Part shown: positions 2,153 through 46,980 of the stretch, in pieces | Layout: each line of letters opens with the position of its first letter | Numbering within the stretch: position 1 is the stretch's first letter | Origin: Candidatus Bathyarchaeota archaeon | GTDB lineage: Archaea; Thermoproteota; Bathyarchaeia; Bathyarchaeales; Bathycorpusculaceae | Length of the DNA stretch: 46,980 nt | Direction of reading: 5' to 3' | Assembly: GCA_026014485.1 (NCBI GenBank) | Contig: JAOZIE010000002.1 | Span: 1 to 46,980 of the forward strand | The notes under the pieces: generated by a model | Told to the model about the DNA's origin: nothing | Seen by the model: the letters and a program-made list of their open reading frames with translations, nothing else | The model's database searches: none | Program-made: the position numbers and the translations under genes

Positions 2153-2881
2153 TCAAGAAACGGTTTGCATTAGTATTCTTTTGAGGATGGATATGCCGTG
2201 TCGCATTTTCAGTTTCTTCTCACCTAACCGTTCGCGGTAGGTGATTGGGACTTCAATGGTTCGGTATCCTTTTCTTTCCACCAGCTTGTTTAGTTCAACT
2301 TCGATGTCGAAACCTTTTGACTTCACCGCAAAGCCTCTGAGCAAGTCCGCTCGGATAACACGTAATCCAGTTAAGGGGTCATTCATCGACACGCCGTTGA
2401 GTAGGCTGTGGGCGACGGAAAGCAGTTTGTTACCGAAGTAGAACTTGTTGTGCAGGGCGTTCTCGTCTATTTTTCCGCCGAATCGGTTTCCGCACACCAT
2501 ACCCACCTGCGGATTCCTCTCTAGAATCTCAATCATGGCGGGCACATACTCCGCTGGGTAAGTGTGGTCTGCATCGGTTAGGACAACATATTCTACGTCT
2601 CCACCTGTGTGCTCAAGAGCCTGAGCTATAGCGTCTCCTTTGCCAACACCTTCCTGCAATAGTACATCTACGCCTAAGTCCTTGGAAACTTCCACTGTTC
2701 GGTCTACGCTTTTGCCGTCAACAACCAAAACCTGTGGGAAAGACAGGTTTTTCTGAAGTTCAGATATTGTCAGTCCAATGCCTTCTTCCTCGTTTAACGC
2801 AGCAATAATAACCTGCGTCGAACTGTGTCCTACTTGCTGATTTAAACCGAATCCGAGAGGCTGTTTCTCGATTGTCTGCAT
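2153..2881 (-). CDS. Family 2 glycosyltransferase, dolichyl-phosphate sugar synthase-like
   Basis: 242 residues with the GT-A fold signatures of dolichyl-phosphate mannose/glucose synthases: VIIAALNEEEGIG near 25-37, VVDGKSVDRT near 53-62, the DAD metal-binding motif in VLTDADHTYP near 100, and GFDIEVELNKL near 190. The enzyme would transfer a sugar from a nucleotide sugar to dolichyl phosphate at the inner membrane face, supplying N-glycan or glycolipid synthesis. It has no C-terminal membrane segments, so it resembles the single-domain enzymes. Donor sugar is not predictable. The ATG follows AGGTG, about 8 nt upstream. Confidence 0.87.
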   Translation of the reverse strand: MQTIEKQPLGFGLNQQVGHSSTQVIIAALNEEEGIGLTISELQKNLSFPQVLVVDGKSVDRTVEVSKDLGVDVLLQEGVGKGDAIAQALEHTGGDVEYVVLTDADHTYPAEYVPAMIEILERNPQVGMVCGNRFGGKIDENALHNKFYFGNKLLSVAHSLLNGVSMNDPLTGLRVIRADLLRGFAVKSKGFDIEVELNKLVERKGYRTIEVPITYRERLGEKKLKMRHGISILKRILMQTVS

Positions 2882-4003: not shown

Positions 4004-6091
4004 ATGCAGTTTAAAATGAGCTCTCCTTCAGATTTCGGTTCACTGTTTACTCAGCACAGACTAGCTGTTGCCCTAAAGTTCTCCGTGATTTCAGTTGTCA
4101 TTTTATTGCTGTATGCTCAGGATTTAGGCATAATTTTTACTGGTGCCTTAAGCGATGAAGCTTCCTTTCATATCCTTGCAGTTCCTATACTGTTTGCTTA
4201 TTTGTTGTTTCGAAAAAGGAAAATGGTAAACGCTGTTTTGCATCAACCGAACACGAGTTCCGTGTGGTTCACGAGGAATTTTAGCACACTGGCAGGTGCG
4301 GCTCTTTTTGCTACAGCTATTCTTACCTACTGGTTTGGCAGCTACACGTTTACCCCTCTGGAGTATCACATGGTTACGTTGCCCTTTGTAGCAACCGCCT
4401 TAGTTTTGATGCTATTTAACCTCCAAGCTCTCAAGCAGGTGGTGTTGCCTATCGCTTTTCTTTTTTTCTTGACTCCGCCACCTGCAGAAATTCTCTTCTC
4501 GATTGGGTCATTGCTGTCAAACTTGAGTGCGGCAGCGGCAAATGCGCTTGCCAACCTTTTCGGTTTAGCCTCCGTTTTGTCTAATTCCTACGGGAGCCCA
4601 ATAATTACTCTTACCAGACCTGACAGTTCAATCATGACTTTCAGTGTTGATGTGGCGTGCTCTGGTATCTATAGCCTCATTGGATTTGTGATATTCGCGC
4701 TTTTCATAGCCTACATTACCCGCGGCAAATTGCGTAACAAGTTTGCTATCTTACTCATGGGTATACCCTTAATCATCGTCTTGAACATAATTCGGATAAC
4801 CACCATCCTCTTCATAGGTTACTACTACGGCGACGAGTTGGCGCTTCAAGTTTTCCACACAGTCGGCGCTACGGTACTCATGTTCATCGGCACACTCGTG
4901 CTTTTGGGCATAACCGAGAAGTTCTTCAAGAAGCCCAAGCCGCCTCCGCCTTGCCCAACCTGCACCTCCACCGAGCTATACGCATATGAAGAATCCTGTC
5001 CCCAATGCGGCAAACTCAAAACTTTCCCAAAAACCAAACTAAACAGAAACGACCTAACCAAGATTGTCTGCATAGCCCTTGTTGTTGCCGTTTTGTTGTC
5101 GATTCAGGCGCCTGTTTTTGCTTTAACGCAGGGTCCAGCAGAAATTGAAATTCAAACGCCGACAGGAACGCAGGGAAATACGCTGCTTCTTCCACAGGTC
5201 CAAGGGTACACGTTAAGCTACGTTTTCCGTGATACCGCTTTCGAGCAGCTGTCAGGGGAAGATGCCTCCTTAGTGTACGCGTACGGTTCAGCAAACGGGA
5301 CTTTTTCAACCGTTTGGGTCGCGGTAGAGTTGGCGACGTCTCTTGCCCCTCTTCACCGCTGGGAAACTTGCCTAGTTAACTATCCTATAATTCAAGGTTA
5401 CCAGCCGACGGTGAGGCAACTTGACCTGCGAGATATACAGACTCAGGAGAACCCCCCTATAGTTTCCCGATACTTTGCTTTTCAATATTTTAATAATAAC
5501 CAGACTCAGGTTGTGCTGTATTGGTATCAGACCGCTAAGTTCAACGTAAACGGCACTACGCAACTTATGAACCTCAAAATGAGTTTAGTTGAGTATCCAC
5601 AGTCTCCCGAGGCTATCCCCGCTTCAGAAGCGCATTTACTGATTTTTGCCAAAGCCATACACAACTATTGGCAGCCTATACAAACTTGGACAAGAGTTGC
5701 CTTGATTGTCTCTCAAAACGGTTTAGTCCTTTCAGCATTGGCAGGAGTAGCCCTAATGGCTATTCTTTTCTACGGTGCCCTCTTGAATAGACGCTCCCGA
5801 TTATTCACTTTGCGACTCTACAGTAAAATTTCGCCGCAAAATCACCTTTTGGTTAATGCAGTCGTGAATGCACAGCACCTCGGAGACTCATCAACCCGAA
5901 ACGTCGCAGCAGAATACCAAAAGCTTACTGACCTTCAAATCTCCGAAACATCGTTTACTCAGATGCTTATAGACGCAGAAAAAGCGGGCTTAGTCAAGAA
6001 GAACCTCTTGAATGTAGATGACCATCCCGTATTAAATTGGGCCTGTCCGTTGGCAGACAAAAAATCCCTCCTGCACTGGTTCGGGCTTTAG
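4004..6091 (+). CDS. Archaeosortase/exosortase fused to zinc ribbon, EpsI-like domain and cytoplasmic tail
   Basis: 695 residues, much longer than a plain archaeosortase (about 280-320). Residues 20-305 are a multi-spanning exosortase core with the expected catalytic triad: C219 (VACSGIYS), R264 (NIIRIT) and H285 (VFHTVG). Residues 317-335 form a zinc ribbon (CPTC, then CPQC). A membrane segment near 352-374 leads to an extracellular domain (375-565) that resembles the exosortase-associated EpsI domain, with HRWETC and IIQGYQP near 451-467. Another membrane helix (572-594) is followed by a cytoplasmic tail of about 100 residues that looks helical and winged-helix-like. Such enzymes cleave C-terminal sorting signals on exported proteins. 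A TATA-like box (AGCATAAATAT) lies near 3955 and GGGGAC precedes the ATG. Confidence 0.85.
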   Translation: MQFKMSSPSDFGSLFTQHRLAVALKFSVISVVILLLYAQDLGIIFTGALSDEASFHILAVPILFAYLLFRKRKMVNAVLHQPNTSSVWFTRNFSTLAGAALFATAILTYWFGSYTFTPLEYHMVTLPFVATALVLMLFNLQALKQVVLPIAFLFFLTPPPAEILFSIGSLLSNLSAAAANALANLFGLASVLSNSYGSPIITLTRPDSSIMTFSVDVACSGIYSLIGFVIFALFIAYITRGKLRNKFAILLMGIPLIIVLNIIRITTILFIGYYYGDELALQVFHTVGATVLMFIGTLVLLGITEKFFKKPKPPPPCPTCTSTELYAYEESCPQCGKLKTFPKTKLNRNDLTKIVCIALVVAVLLSIQAPVFALTQGPAEIEIQTPTGTQGNTLLLPQVQGYTLSYVFRDTAFEQLSGEDASLVYAYGSANGTFSTVWVAVELATSLAPLHRWETCLVNYPIIQGYQPTVRQLDLRDIQTQENPPIVSRYFAFQYFNNNQTQVVLYWYQTAKFNVNGTTQLMNLKMSLVEYPQSPEAIPASEAHLLIFAKAIHNYWQPIQTWTRVALIVSQNGLVLSALAGVALMAILFYGALLNRRSRLFTLRLYSKISPQNHLLVNAVVNAQHLGDSSTRNVAAEYQKLTDLQISETSFTQMLIDAEKAGLVKKNLLNVDDHPVLNWACPLADKKSLLHWFGL

Positions 6092-6238: not shown

Positions 6239-6766
6239 TTAGAGGGGTATGCTTTTCAGGTATTTGTTCCACAAGTAGGCAGCCGCGTAACCTGCTGCGA
6301 TGCCGCTGCCTGTGCCCACAAAAATTACTAGAATTGACATCATAGGCGTTAGTTCGGTTGGAGTTACCTCTATGATTTTGGAGTACACTGCAACCGTGTA
6401 GTAGCTTACGAAGCCAATTATGGCTGTACTACACGCCATAGCTAAAATTACCCTGTTTCTTTTTACGACTCCTTCTTTGGGCGATGCTTTGAAGACTGCG
6501 AAGAACAAATCAACCAACACTCCGTACAAAAACGTGAAGACAAAGGTGAACGGACCAAACGCTGGGCGAGATAGACCTGATAGTACGCCGCCGACAAGAC
6601 CCACATAGGTGGCTCCTGCTTTTCCCACAAAAAGTGTGGCTAAGGCGAGGATAACTGCTTGCACAGCAATCAGGAGGTAACTTATGGGCGGTGGGACAAA
6701 AAAGTTCGTAACGAATATAATTGAGCTTAAAAGTGCCGTTATGAATATGCGTTTGACTTTGTGCAC
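6239..6766 (-). CDS. Small membrane protein, probable ECF transporter S component
   Basis: 175 residues with about five or six hydrophobic segments (for example TALLSSIIFVTNFFVPPPI, YLLIAVQAVILALATLFVG, and ILVIFVGTGSGIAAGYAAAYL). Size, topology and the Gly-rich helices resemble the substrate-capture (S) subunits of energy-coupling factor vitamin transporters. No ECF ATPase or T subunit lies nearby, so it would share a module encoded elsewhere. The ligand cannot be predicted, and a different small integral membrane protein is possible. A TATA-like stretch (rc of TATATTAAAAAAC) lies about 35 bp upstream of the ATG. Confidence 0.55.
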   Translation of the reverse strand: MHKVKRIFITALLSSIIFVTNFFVPPPISYLLIAVQAVILALATLFVGKAGATYVGLVGGVLSGLSRPAFGPFTFVFTFLYGVLVDLFFAVFKASPKEGVVKRNRVILAMACSTAIIGFVSYYTVAVYSKIIEVTPTELTPMMSILVIFVGTGSGIAAGYAAAYLWNKYLKSIPL

Positions 6767-15340: not shown

Positions 15341-16819
15341 TTAGATTTTTGGTGTCCGTTCAGGTGTCAGGCTTGATGAGGGGGTTTGTCTGTAGTTTGC
15401 GGTGACGGTTGTGTCTGATTCTGGTACGGTGTATTTGCCTGAAGCGCCTGATAGACCGTCTCCGTTTGTCCAGTGGGAGAAGTGGTAGACTGTGTGGTCC
15501 TCGCCGCTGAGGGGGGTTGACGCCGACACAGTGTGGATTGAGCCTTTTGCCCACATGAAGTAGGTGGAGGGCAAATCCCAGTAGTCGTATCCTACGCCGT
15601 CTATCGTGAGGACGACTCCGCCTGAGAAAGTGGGCAGAGAACTTGTTGCAAACTGTATCTGAACCGAGATGACCTCATAGTTCGCGGTTACTGTGGTATT
15701 TGTGTCTGCTACGGTGAATGTTCCCGAGGCTCCAACCAATCCCTCCCCGTTTTTCCAACTGACGAATCCGTAGATTTTTTCGTCCCAGCCTGTGAGCGGC
15801 GTCTCTGCAGTTACCGTGTGAGTTGTGCCTTTTTCCCATTTGAAGCTGGGCATGTTCCAGTAGTCGTATCCCGTGCCGTCTATGGTGAGTATGTCATCGT
15901 TTACATTGCTTATACCTGATGTCGCAAACGTCACCGTTACTGATGTGCGCACATAGTTTACTGTGACCTCTGTATCTGAATGCGGCACAGTAAATGTTCC
16001 TGAAGCTTCGACTAGCCCATTTCCGTTTGTCCAACTTGAGAAGCGGTAGATATCGTCGTTCCATGCAGTGAGGGGCGTTGAAGCAACTACGGTGTGGGTT
16101 GTTCCTGACAGCCAGTTAAAAGTCTCCCACGGCAAATCCCAATAATCATAGTCTTTACCGTCAATTGTAAGGACAACGTCATCGTACTTGCTTAGTCCAC
16201 TAGATGCAAAATTCACGTCAACCATAACAGGGGACGGCGTCGGCGTAGGAGAAGGCGTAGGCGAGGCAGTAGGAGTCGGGGAAGGCGTAGGAGTTGGAGT
16301 CGCGGTTGGGGTTGGCGTCGGTGTTGCTGTCGGCGTCGGGCTCGGGGATGATGAAGGAGTGGCGCTTGGCGAGGTAGACGCTGTTGCTTCTGGCGGTGCC
16401 TGCGCTTTGAAAGACAAAACTTGCTGCAGTACAGGGGAAACTATTTTGAAATCGTATATGACGCCAGCCTCCCAAGCGTATGACAGGTTGAAGCTGGTCA
16501 GTTGACCCGCCGCAAGAGGAATGGGCAGGGCAGGTGAGGTTGATTGGGTTTCCCCGCTTGATTCTGAGGTTCCAACGTATACTGCAAGAATCCTTGTATC
16601 TGAAACCCCCGAATTTCCCACGGCTACCGTTATAATGTTGTCAGACCTGAACGCGACGTTTGCCTCGTACAGGAAAACGCCTGCTTGCTGAGCTGTGTTT
16701 TCAACGTTGGTTGTTATCCAAGAATAAGTTACGGCGACAGCCGCCACAGCCAACACAATGATTAGTAGCGTCGCTAATATCGGCGTTACAGCTCGTTTAG
16801 ACTTTGCCACAGCTAACAT
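15341..16819 (-). CDS. Type IV pilin-like surface protein with Thr/Pro linker and three repeat domains
   Basis: 492 residues. The N terminus (AKSKRAVTPILATLLIIVLAVAAVAV) is a class III/pilin-type signal: a short basic stretch, then the hydrophobic helix that packs into a pilus. A globular part covers about 40-145, then a Ser/Thr/Pro linker (about 147-198). Three homologous units of about 85 residues follow, each with LTIDGxxYDYWxxP, THTV(V/T/S)A, TPL and ASG(T/K)(F/Y)TV followed by a (V/T)NY end, resembling InlB/SLAP-type adhesin repeats. Assembly through a type IV pilus-like system and surface display are inferred. A TATA-like TTTTAAAA on the minus strand ends about 33 bp upstream, so the leader is very short. 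Confidence 0.8.
   Translation of the reverse strand: MLAVAKSKRAVTPILATLLIIVLAVAAVAVTYSWITTNVENTAQQAGVFLYEANVAFRSDNIITVAVGNSGVSDTRILAVYVGTSESSGETQSTSPALPIPLAAGQLTSFNLSYAWEAGVIYDFKIVSPVLQQVLSFKAQAPPEATASTSPSATPSSSPSPTPTATPTPTPTATPTPTPSPTPTASPTPSPTPTPSPVMVDVNFASSGLSKYDDVVLTIDGKDYDYWDLPWETFNWLSGTTHTVVASTPLTAWNDDIYRFSSWTNGNGLVEASGTFTVPHSDTEVTVNYVRTSVTVTFATSGISNVNDDILTIDGTGYDYWNMPSFKWEKGTTHTVTAETPLTGWDEKIYGFVSWKNGEGLVGASGTFTVADTNTTVTANYEVISVQIQFATSSLPTFSGGVVLTIDGVGYDYWDLPSTYFMWAKGSIHTVSASTPLSGEDHTVYHFSHWTNGDGLSGASGKYTVPESDTTVTANYRQTPSSSLTPERTPKI
16228..16372 (-). repeat. Low-complexity tandem repeat coding the Thr/Pro linker
   Basis: Imperfect 12-bp and 6-bp units (GGCGTCGGCGTA-like on the plus strand) encode alternating Thr-Pro and Ser-Pro residues. 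The unit length is a multiple of three, so copy-number change would keep the frame. It is a coding linker, not a CRISPR or an intergenic repeat. Confidence 0.8.
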
Positions 16820-44573: not shown

Positions 44574-46980
44574 ATGAAGACAAACAAAATCTTGACACTG
44601 GTGATTGTAGGCTTATTGCTTTTATCAGTGTACTCTTCTTTAATTCCAATAGACTCTGCATCTGCAGTGACCCCATCTACTAGGGTGACTTTCCACGAAA
44701 CAGGTTTAGCCTCTGGCACGAGTTGGACCGTGGTTTTTGATGGTGTCCCCAAATCTTCTACAACGACAACTATCTTGTGTTCTTGTTCGTCTGGAACGCA
44801 CACGTACTCTGTTGAACTCCCTTCAGGATACACTTCTAGTTCCACGTTATCAGACACTGTGTTTGTATCAACAAATGAAGCAAAGGATCTTTACTTTTCA
44901 TTCAGCCCATCTGGGCATAATGTCATCTTTGTTGAGTCTGGATTGTCCTCTGGGACTCTCTGGAACGTAACCTTTAACGGTGTGACTCAGTCTTCAACCA
45001 CAACCCAGATAAACTTCATTGGTTACGCAGACGGCAACTATCCCTACCTGATTAATACGCCAAACGGTTACACCATAGGCACCGCATCCTCAGGAACCAT
45101 AACCGTTTCAGGCGCCAACGTAAACAAATCTGTAACGTTTGCTTCTCTTTTAGGCACTGATTGGCCTGAGTTCCATCATGACATAGCAAATACCGGCTAC
45201 TCGACTACGACTGGGCCACTCACCAACCAAACCCTATGGAACTACACCACCGGCAACGCTGTGTTGTCGTCTCCTGCGGTTGCAGACGGCGTAGTGTATG
45301 TAGGCTCAAAGGACAATAAGGTGTATGCACTAAACGCATCTTCTGGCGTACAAATCTGGAATTACATCACCGGCGACGATGTGTCTTATTCGTCTCCTGC
45401 GGTTGTTGATGGTGTTGTTTACGTGGGCTCATACGACGGCAAGGTGTATGCATTTGGTGGCCCGTCAGCGCCTCCAGAATACACTTTAACCATGAATACA
45501 GTGGGTCAAGGCAGTGTTTCTCCGGGTAACCAAACCTACCCTGAGGGTGCGGTGGCTAATTTGACTGCTACGTCGGCTGCTGGTTGGACGTTTAGTGGTT
45601 GGAGTGGTGATGCTTCAGGCACCGCTAATACGACTCTTACAATGGATGGCAACAAGACTGTCGTTGCCACCTTTACTCAGGATATCTACACTTTAACTAT
45701 GTATACTGTGGGGGATGGTCAGGTTAGTCCGGGAAACTCTACTTCTTACCACTATGGGGACACAGTAGATATCAAAGCGATGAATGCAGTGGGCTGGACA
45801 TTTGCTGGTTGGAGTGGTGCATCAACAGCTACCACCAACACCACCCTAACCATGACAGGTAACTTGACCGTTACAGCCACTTTCTCCCAGAACAACTATA
45901 CTTTAACGATGGTTACTGTTGGTCAGGGTTCTGTTTCTCCGGGCAATGCGACTTACTCGGCGGGTGCGGTGGCTAATTTGACTGCTACGCCGGCTGCTGG
46001 TTGGACGTTTAGTGGTTGGAGTGGTGAGGATCTTTCAGGTACCGCCGACACTACCATCACCATGAACAGCAACATGACTGTTACTGCGACGTTTACGCAA
46101 GACAACTATATGCTAACGGTGGTTACTGCTGGTAATGGTACTGTGAACTATTCTAACCAGACTTTCCTATCTGGAACTAATGTTACTTTGATTGCTGCTC
46201 CTGAGGCGGGTTGGAGTTTTGGCAACTGGACTGGCGATGTCACAGGTACAGATAATCCAGCATACGTAGTGATGGATGATAACAAGACTGTAACTGCAAC
46301 CTTTGCCCAGAATACCTACTACTTAACTGTCATAATCATTGGTGGCGGTGTGGTCAGCGAGGGTAACCAAACCTATAGTTGCAATGAAACTGTTCAGCTT
46401 AGGTCGAAGACTTCTCCAGGTTGGAGTTTTGCTGGCTGGAGCGGTGACGCCTCAGGCACAGACACACGAATAGAATTCACTATGGATTCCAACAAGACTG
46501 TAACTGCAACTTTCACACAGAACACGTACACACTAAATGTTGAGTACGTCGGTCAGGGCCATGTTGACCTCAATGTGACGGGGCCATATGTTTACGGGCA
46601 AGCTGTTAACTTGACAGCTGTTGCAGACCAAGGCTGGAGCTTTGCAGATTGGAGTGACGAATTAGGCACTAGCAACCCATTGACCTTAGAGATAACTTCT
46701 AACAGTACCGTGACAGCTACCTTCGTTAAGAACACCTACATCATAACCATAAACATAGACGGCCACGGAGCAGTTAACCGTAATGCAACAGAGACCTACG
46801 AGTACAGTCAAGGCGTTAATTTAACCGCTGTTCCACAGGCAGGTTGGAGCTTTAGCGGCTGGAGCAGTGATGCATCTGGAACAGACAACCCCATAACAGT
46901 TGTGACAACTAGCAACATGACTATTACTGCGACGTTTACTCAGGATGTCTATTCGTTGACTGTGGTTACTGTGGGTTCGG
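44574..46980 (+). CDS. Large secreted repeat protein, 3'-truncated by the window
   Basis: The frame opens at ATG 44574 and runs without a stop to the window end (802 codons seen). Residues 1-31 form a Sec signal peptide ending AxA (SASA). Two archaeal surface repeats (FHETGLASGTSWTVVF and FVESGLSSGTLWNVTF) cover about 38-200, a PQQ-like beta-propeller segment about 215-300 (SSPAVADGVVYVGSKDNKVYALNASSG), then InlB-type repeats of about 70 residues from 302. Asn-x-Ser/Thr glycosylation sites are many. A cell-surface adhesin or sheath protein is likely. A C-terminal sorting signal for the archaeosortase cannot be checked because it lies outside the window. Confidence 0.88.
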   Translation, partial: MKTNKILTLVIVGLLLLSVYSSLIPIDSASAVTPSTRVTFHETGLASGTSWTVVFDGVPKSSTTTTILCSCSSGTHTYSVELPSGYTSSSTLSDTVFVSTNEAKDLYFSFSPSGHNVIFVESGLSSGTLWNVTFNGVTQSSTTTQINFIGYADGNYPYLINTPNGYTIGTASSGTITVSGANVNKSVTFASLLGTDWPEFHHDIANTGYSTTTGPLTNQTLWNYTTGNAVLSSPAVADGVVYVGSKDNKVYALNASSGVQIWNYITGDDVSYSSPAVVDGVVYVGSYDGKVYAFGGPSAPPEYTLTMNTVGQGSVSPGNQTYPEGAVANLTATSAAGWTFSGWSGDASGTANTTLTMDGNKTVVATFTQDIYTLTMYTVGDGQVSPGNSTSYHYGDTVDIKAMNAVGWTFAGWSGASTATTNTTLTMTGNLTVTATFSQNNYTLTMVTVGQGSVSPGNATYSAGAVANLTATPAAGWTFSGWSGEDLSGTADTTITMNSNMTVTATFTQDNYMLTVVTAGNGTVNYSNQTFLSGTNVTLIAAPEAGWSFGNWTGDVTGTDNPAYVVMDDNKTVTATFAQNTYYLTVIIIGGGVVSEGNQTYSCNETVQLRSKTSPGWSFAGWSGDASGTDTRIEFTMDSNKTVTATFTQNTYTLNVEYVGQGHVDLNVTGPYVYGQAVNLTAVADQGWSFADWSDELGTSNPLTLEITSNSTVTATFVKNTYIITINIDGHGAVNRNATETYEYSQGVNLTAVPQAGWSFSGWSSDASGTDNPITVVTTSNMTITATFTQDVYSLTVVTVGS
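45478..46980 (+). repeat. Tandem InlB-type protein repeats
   Basis: Units of about 205-213 bp, starting near 45478, 45688, 45898, 46111, 46318, 46528, 46735 and 46950 (last is partial). Each encodes an opening YTLT-type strand, a GxVSPGN-type turn, a conserved GW(T/S)FxxWSG block and a TMxxNxTVxATF end. Protein identity is moderate, but units 1 and 3 share nearly identical DNA over about 65 bp. Confidence 0.85.

Follow-up and report, generated by a model that had tools for sequence, protein, structure and literature searches.

An exosortase-type protein of Bathyarchaeota joined to a zinc ribbon, an EpsI-like domain and a predicted winged helix, with candidate VPE-tagged substrates

Domain architecture and family membership

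The 695-aa protein described here is probably an exosortase of Bathyarchaeota whose substrates form a separate class of exported surface proteins. It is predicted to carry an EpsI-like helper domain outside the membrane and a zinc ribbon and a winged helix inside. It is encoded in a window of 46,980 nucleotides, which is the whole stretch of DNA analyzed and makes up the initial 47 kb of contig C12 in a Bathyarchaeota genome of 2.37 Mb (97% complete). The open reading frame starts with ATG and contains no internal stop codons (Table 1).

Table 1. Features of the open reading frame and of its context within the window
Feature	Position	Strand	Evidence or remark
Whole ORF, 695 aa	4004..6091	+	Exosortase / ribbon / TM / EpsI-like / TM / winged helix; full-length homologues
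Exosortase (EpsH) transmembrane domain, residues 31-304	4094..4915	+	PF09721 112.9 bits and TIGR04178 73.7 bits, above cut-off
Cys219, putative catalytic (ACSGIYS)	4658..4660	+	Invariant in 27/27 homologues; Ser in one genus outside the class
Arg264, putative catalytic	4793..4795	+	Invariant in homologues
His285, putative catalytic	4856..4858	+	Invariant in homologues
Predicted cytoplasmic four-Cys zinc ribbon, Cys317/320/332/335	4952..5008	+	Invariant in 27/27; weak matches to zinc-ribbon models (e.g. DZR) in 14/25 members
TM segment before EpsI-like domain, ~residues 350-373	5051..5122	+	Hydropathy peak 354-369 over alignment
EpsI-like domain, predicted extracytoplasmic, residues 376-560	5129..5683	+	XrtW alignment to 461; weak DUF3485; sequon enrichment
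H451-x-W-E-x-C456 motif, EpsI-like domain	5354..5371	+	H, W, E and C invariant in 27 homologues
TM segment before tail, ~residues 566-593	5699..5782	+	Hydropathy peak 573-587
Predicted winged-helix tail, residues 611-681	5834..6046	+	AlphaFold, Foldseek; P675 nearly invariant, W679 invariant
AglJ / dolichyl-phosphate hexose transferase-like GT2	2153..2881	-	Context; relatives in 11 orthologue loci
Small membrane protein, weak ABC_cobalt / ECF-S similarity	6239..6766	-	Context; also near three other orthologues

The protein scores well above the cut-offs of both general exosortase models, Pfam PF09721 (E 2e-32; cut-off 25.7 bits) and TIGR04178 (cut-off 23 bits). The Cys, Arg and His/Arg catalytic residues of the superfamily correspond to C219, R264 and H285, and the first-pass annotation was right to regard the protein as an exosortase-type enzyme with an intact triad. 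A further property of the superfamily, proteins with a cognate tripartite C-terminal signal in the same genome, is also present, as judged from seven such proteins and from the co-occurrence of signal and enzyme described below. Among the named exosortase models the best scores were obtained with XrtW (87 bits), XrtD (77 bits) and XrtA (73 bits), whereas archaeosortase (Art) models score far lower, the best being ArtC with 30 bits. The protein nevertheless lies outside the curated families XrtW (NF038142; 87.1 bits versus a cut-off of 425) and XrtD (TIGR04152; 77.3 versus 400). A sequence search of the PDB with the enzyme revealed no solved relative, and tblastn against plasmids gave no match.

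Assignment of residues 376-560 is weaker. DUF3485 reaches 13.8 bits (E 0.047), which is below its gathering score of 26.1, and it matches weakly in 4/25 homologues (best E 4e-4). TIGR02914 (EpsI) was not listed for the protein at E <= 1, while the alignment to the XrtW model extends to residue 461 and hence into this region. Since the similarity to EpsI consists of the XrtW alignment and the weak DUF3485 matches, with homology below curated cut-offs, the domain is termed 'EpsI-like'. Its position is that of EpsI, as it follows an exosortase, is preceded by one TM segment and is predicted to lie outside. Hydropathy averaged over the alignment reveals additional membrane segments at residues ~354-369 and ~573-587, and N-glycosylation sequons are about twofold enriched in residues 376-560 (75 versus 39.5 +/- 5.7 in shuffled sequences) but not in the ribbon (5 versus 6.6) or the tail (15 versus 22). 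The sequon distribution and hydropathy thus support an extracytoplasmic position of the EpsI-like domain and a cytoplasmic position of ribbon and tail, as predicted from sequence. Ribbon and topology therefore agree with the first-pass annotation. A full-length structure prediction from three sequences reached a pLDDT of 45 and was set aside.

Conservation of the fusion

The annotated fusion is shared by relatives. The same architecture was found in 26/91 genomes of the family and in 41/257 genomes of the class (Bathyarchaeota), with a few partial copies, mostly at contig ends. Outside the class, but within the same phylum, two full-length copies from other families and two partial or interrupted ones were detected. 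Alignment of 27 homologues showed no variation in the Cys-Arg-His triad, in the four cysteines of the ribbon, in H451, W453, E454 and C456 (EpsI-like domain) or in W679 (tail), and this was confirmed for 25. This recurrence at full length together with the invariant residues argues that the fusion is old and under selection and not an accident. The alternative of a decayed gene, or of a chimera whose domains were joined by misassembly or a frameshift, has a probability close to nil: apart from fragmentary copies in a few relatives nothing was found in its favour, and intact full-length homologues with the key residues kept occur across genera and families in many independent genomes.

Divergent copies were also observed. 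In one genus outside the class (L128:5779-7947 in G423, L130:4851-7097 in G473 and L126:5007-5975 in G544) the catalytic Cys is replaced by Ser (EPSSGLF), Arg and His are kept, and the EpsI Cys is also Ser where seen. These copies possibly represent a serine version or a dead enzyme. A seemingly split exosortase in G544 turned out to be merely a contig end. Another locus (L127:6021-7166 in G157, a region with masked bases) encodes a 382-aa copy that lacks the exosortase domain but keeps the EpsI-like domain, a TM segment and the winged helix; it adjoins genes with the VPE signal and carries Ser in place of the EpsI Cys. More generally, C456 is replaced by Ser in divergent homologues outside the 27. 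A joint loss of the EpsI Cys and the catalytic Cys, which G423, G473 and G157 had seemed to show, was rejected because G311 has C219 and no EpsI Cys.

Candidate substrates and their C-terminal tag

The loci of the homologues repeatedly encode small exported proteins whose last 30-40 residues comprise the motif V-P-E-[Y/S/V]-x-x-G, then a hydrophobic segment and a basic end. From 19 rows of such tags, taken from enzyme loci, a profile (A5) was built and searched through the family and then the class. In the genome studied here it retrieved seven convincing proteins of 154 to 806 aa on contigs C4, C9, C12 and C23, six at E 3e-12 to 1.3e-5 and the seventh at 1.4e-4, so that the search for sorting-signal proteins proposed in the first-pass annotation was successful. 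The observations named there as weakening its reading, a tail with no fold similarity to DNA-binding domains and no fusion in relatives, or a genome devoid of signal proteins, were looked for, and the opposite was seen in each case. Three relatives (G059, G062 and G032) yielded 36 translated matches, nearly all with an N-terminal signal peptide, and a tag consensus of FVVPEYxLGALxALxACFAAF followed by basic residues. Tails (A6) from the window's own genus and its neighbours show a strongly conserved Cys halfway along the hydrophobic helix (A-C-F-A-A).

Existing NCBIfam signal models matched few of 28 tails (two Loki-CTERM, best E 2.4e-5; two PEF-CTERM and one PEFG-CTERM, E 0.05 or worse), PGF-CTERM was not listed for any of the 28, and ten tails inspected singly were all below the cut-offs of the known signal models. 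The VPE[Y/S/V]xxG tag is, as far as can be told, newly recognized.

The candidate substrates found lie elsewhere in the genome; in the window, no substrate gene adjoins the enzyme, which is located 4 kb from the contig end. No VPE-type signal was found in the repeat protein and the pilin-like protein of the window. The former, a giant protein (44574-46980, + strand), is interrupted by an assembly gap just beyond the window and its C-terminus cannot be judged; the latter, with InlB repeats (15341-16819, - strand), has no C-terminal signal. Elsewhere in the contig, a protein with similar-looking repeats (L074:10945-12333, - strand) carries a VPEY tag.

Because the profile was built from enzyme loci, co-occurrence was assessed only in genomes that had contributed no training row. 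In the family the signal was present in 10/13 enzyme carriers versus 4/65 other genomes (Fisher p 2e-7) and in the other families of the class in 12/15 versus 8/151 (Fisher p 8e-11), p values that overstate independence as the genomes are interrelated. Inspection of the 5 kb on either side of each enzyme copy revealed a signal gene in 28/46 cases, or in 15/31 outside the training genomes. Among the genomes tested for co-occurrence, six (G020, G041, G067, G182, G194 and G199) harbor the enzyme but show no signal at E <= 1e-4, although G020 and G041 have weaker matches. The reverse was seen in twelve genomes, several of which are incomplete. Six of these belong to one related family (G183, G186, G190, G191, G192 and G193), in which VPE-type signals occur and a search at E 1e-20 detected no fused enzyme; this family may use a divergent exosortase.

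The genome also encodes an ordinary stand-alone archaeosortase (L002; 358 aa, contig C9), and the tags could belong to this enzyme while the fused protein does something else. Relatives of L002 are indeed present in 60/91 genomes of the family, including this one. However, among these 60 carriers the signal tracks the fused enzyme (18/20 versus 4/40; p 1e-9, training genomes included), its association with the presence of L002 itself reaches only p 0.05, and five genomes (a count that includes training genomes) combine signal and fused enzyme without L002. We consider it highly unlikely that L002 is the tag enzyme, and processing of the tagged proteins by the fused exosortase is preferred.

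Gene neighbourhood

The homologue loci hold a polysaccharide flippase, GT2 enzymes, NDP-sugar epimerases, a DUF1616 membrane protein and a pair of ~270-aa and 70-aa membrane proteins. The DUF1616 protein (L046:6252-6899(-), L047:13115-13747(+) and L125:11368-12003(-)) has an N-terminal winged-helix-like region and, being recurrent in the loci, is predicted to be a second membrane protein of the system with a cytoplasmic region of this type. The pair consists of a ~270-aa two-TM protein with a conserved 'GCPLxSAIACALAKxTGK' domain and a 70-aa two-TM protein (L046:8119-8940(-) with L046:7910-8119(-); L053:11178-12190(+)) and gave no convincing Pfam match. Also recurrent near enzyme loci are exported 150-aa proteins with the motif 'VKAVGVGVYxDxGC' (L046:1312-1770, L047:15479-15931, L050:8652-9113 and L054:12226-12678), which are perhaps filament or surface subunits. 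In the present genome the relative of the 270-aa protein, the DUF1616 protein and an epimerase are located on contig C2. As the enzyme gene is only 4 kb away from the contig end, its own locus may be incomplete. The description of the enzyme as self-contained in the first-pass annotation is therefore half right: the enzyme and the EpsI-like domain do form one chain, but recurrent partner genes accompany the orthologues, and exosortase-EpsI fusions have already been described in bacteria (PMC1569441).

The predicted winged-helix tail and the zinc ribbon

AlphaFold models of the tail from three sequences show a helix-helix-helix-hairpin arrangement with a pLDDT of ~80-88 over the core. A Foldseek search with the predicted tail, which followed a suggestion of the first-pass annotation to look for winged helices, returned archaeal Cdc6/Orc1 (2qby_B; E 4e-4, probability 1.00) as the best match, then yeast Cdc6, then Fur, MarR and PadR; two homologues also match Pfam Cdc6_C weakly. 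Three helices and a beta-hairpin wing are thus present in the model and in its structural matches, which is good support for a tail predicted to fold as a winged helix.

The earlier proposal of cytosolic sensing or DNA-binding regulation, in which the enzyme would be a regulator tethered to the membrane and would link the processing of surface proteins with transcription, concerns only the tail and is compatible with sorting. The fold matches DNA-binding winged helices, the pI of the tail region is ~9-10 in most homologues and an invariant Trp lies in the wing. PrsK and PrsR are regulators associated with bacterial PEP-CTERM systems. These names appear for such systems in the literature (PMC1569441) and offer a parallel for a regulatory function. 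However, the predicted recognition helix is neutral to acidic (mean net charge -1.0, compared with +1.6 for the wing) and variable, conservation among the C-terminal parts is lowest in the tail, and the tail region has a pI of 6.8 in this species. In addition, no gapped word shared by the upstream regions of 36 substrate genes (three genomes) stood clearly above shuffled sequences, although this is a weak test. DNA binding by the tail thus appears rather unlikely, and we regard as more doubtful still the extended version that VPE-tag processing outside is signalled through the EpsI-like domain, the TM segment and the winged helix to promoters, making the enzyme also a membrane-anchored transcription regulator. 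Alternatively, ribbon and winged helix may form a protein-docking module, for example near the translocon, the DUF1616 protein or the 270-aa/70-aa membrane proteins, which is likewise compatible with sorting. The invariant ribbon, the neutral recognition helix and the recurrent membrane partner genes, one of them (DUF1616) with its own N-terminal winged-helix-like region, speak for such a role, whereas the partner genes of this genome are on another contig (C2) and the interaction is putative. With an even chance given to this reading, docking to partners is preferred over regulation as the possible role of the cytoplasmic modules.

Proposed mechanism

We infer the cleavage chemistry, the acceptor and the roles of the EpsI-like domain and the cytoplasmic modules as follows. 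The substrate would be exported by means of its N-terminal signal peptide, and the C-terminal VPE tag would retain it in the membrane. Cys219, together with Arg264 and His285, would then cleave it on the external side, at the VPE motif or close by, via a thioester, and the new C-terminus would be handed to a nucleophile, probably a lipid or an envelope glycan. For ArtA of Haloferax volcanii, a lipid amine has been suggested to resolve the thioester (PMC7157517). Because of this analogy the acceptor could be a lipid, and the neighbouring genes suggest that it could be a glycan. The EpsI-like domain would stay attached outside and likely aids substrate binding or transfer, and the ribbon and winged helix facing the cytoplasm would serve as a docking or regulatory module.

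Such a system would provide a widespread and almost uncultured archaeal group with a defined pathway for processing and anchoring of surface proteins, and its signal can be scanned for in any genome. As the enzyme is naturally fused to the EpsI-like domain and the cytoplasmic module in one chain, EpsI function becomes directly testable.

Comparison with known systems

No published description of such a system in Bathyarchaeota was found in the open-licence literature, and its occurrence in archaea with a ribbon, a winged helix and a signal of its own is new as far as can be told. To our knowledge, no winged helix fused to an exosortase has been known before. Among the named families, XrtW and XrtD are the best-scoring models, and the XrtW alignment reaches into the EpsI-like region. 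Members of XrtW are exosortase-EpsI fusions, and the known members of XrtW and XrtD are bacterial. Their profiles, with 494 and 486 positions compared with 695 aa here, leave no room for the ribbon and the winged helix.

The EpsH/EpsI PEP-CTERM system (PMC1569441) is similar in its multi-TM Cys/Arg/His enzyme with an adjacent or fused EpsI and in its many-to-one signal of motif, helix and basic end. It is encoded amid polysaccharide genes, and this exopolysaccharide setting of bacterial EpsH loci resembles the homologue loci described here. It differs from the present system, which has an archaeal host, a VPE[Y/S/V]xxG instead of a PEP signal, and a cytoplasmic ribbon and winged helix. Archaeosortases A-F and thaumarchaeosortase share with the fused enzyme the archaeal origin, the superfamily and the tripartite C-terminal signals, but the Art scores are far below those of the bacterial exosortase models, and the PEF-, PEFG- and Loki-CTERM models match VPE signals sporadically and mostly below cut-off. 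The fused protein thus appears to represent a sortase subtype whose sequence is nearer to the exosortases of bacteria than to the archaeosortases.
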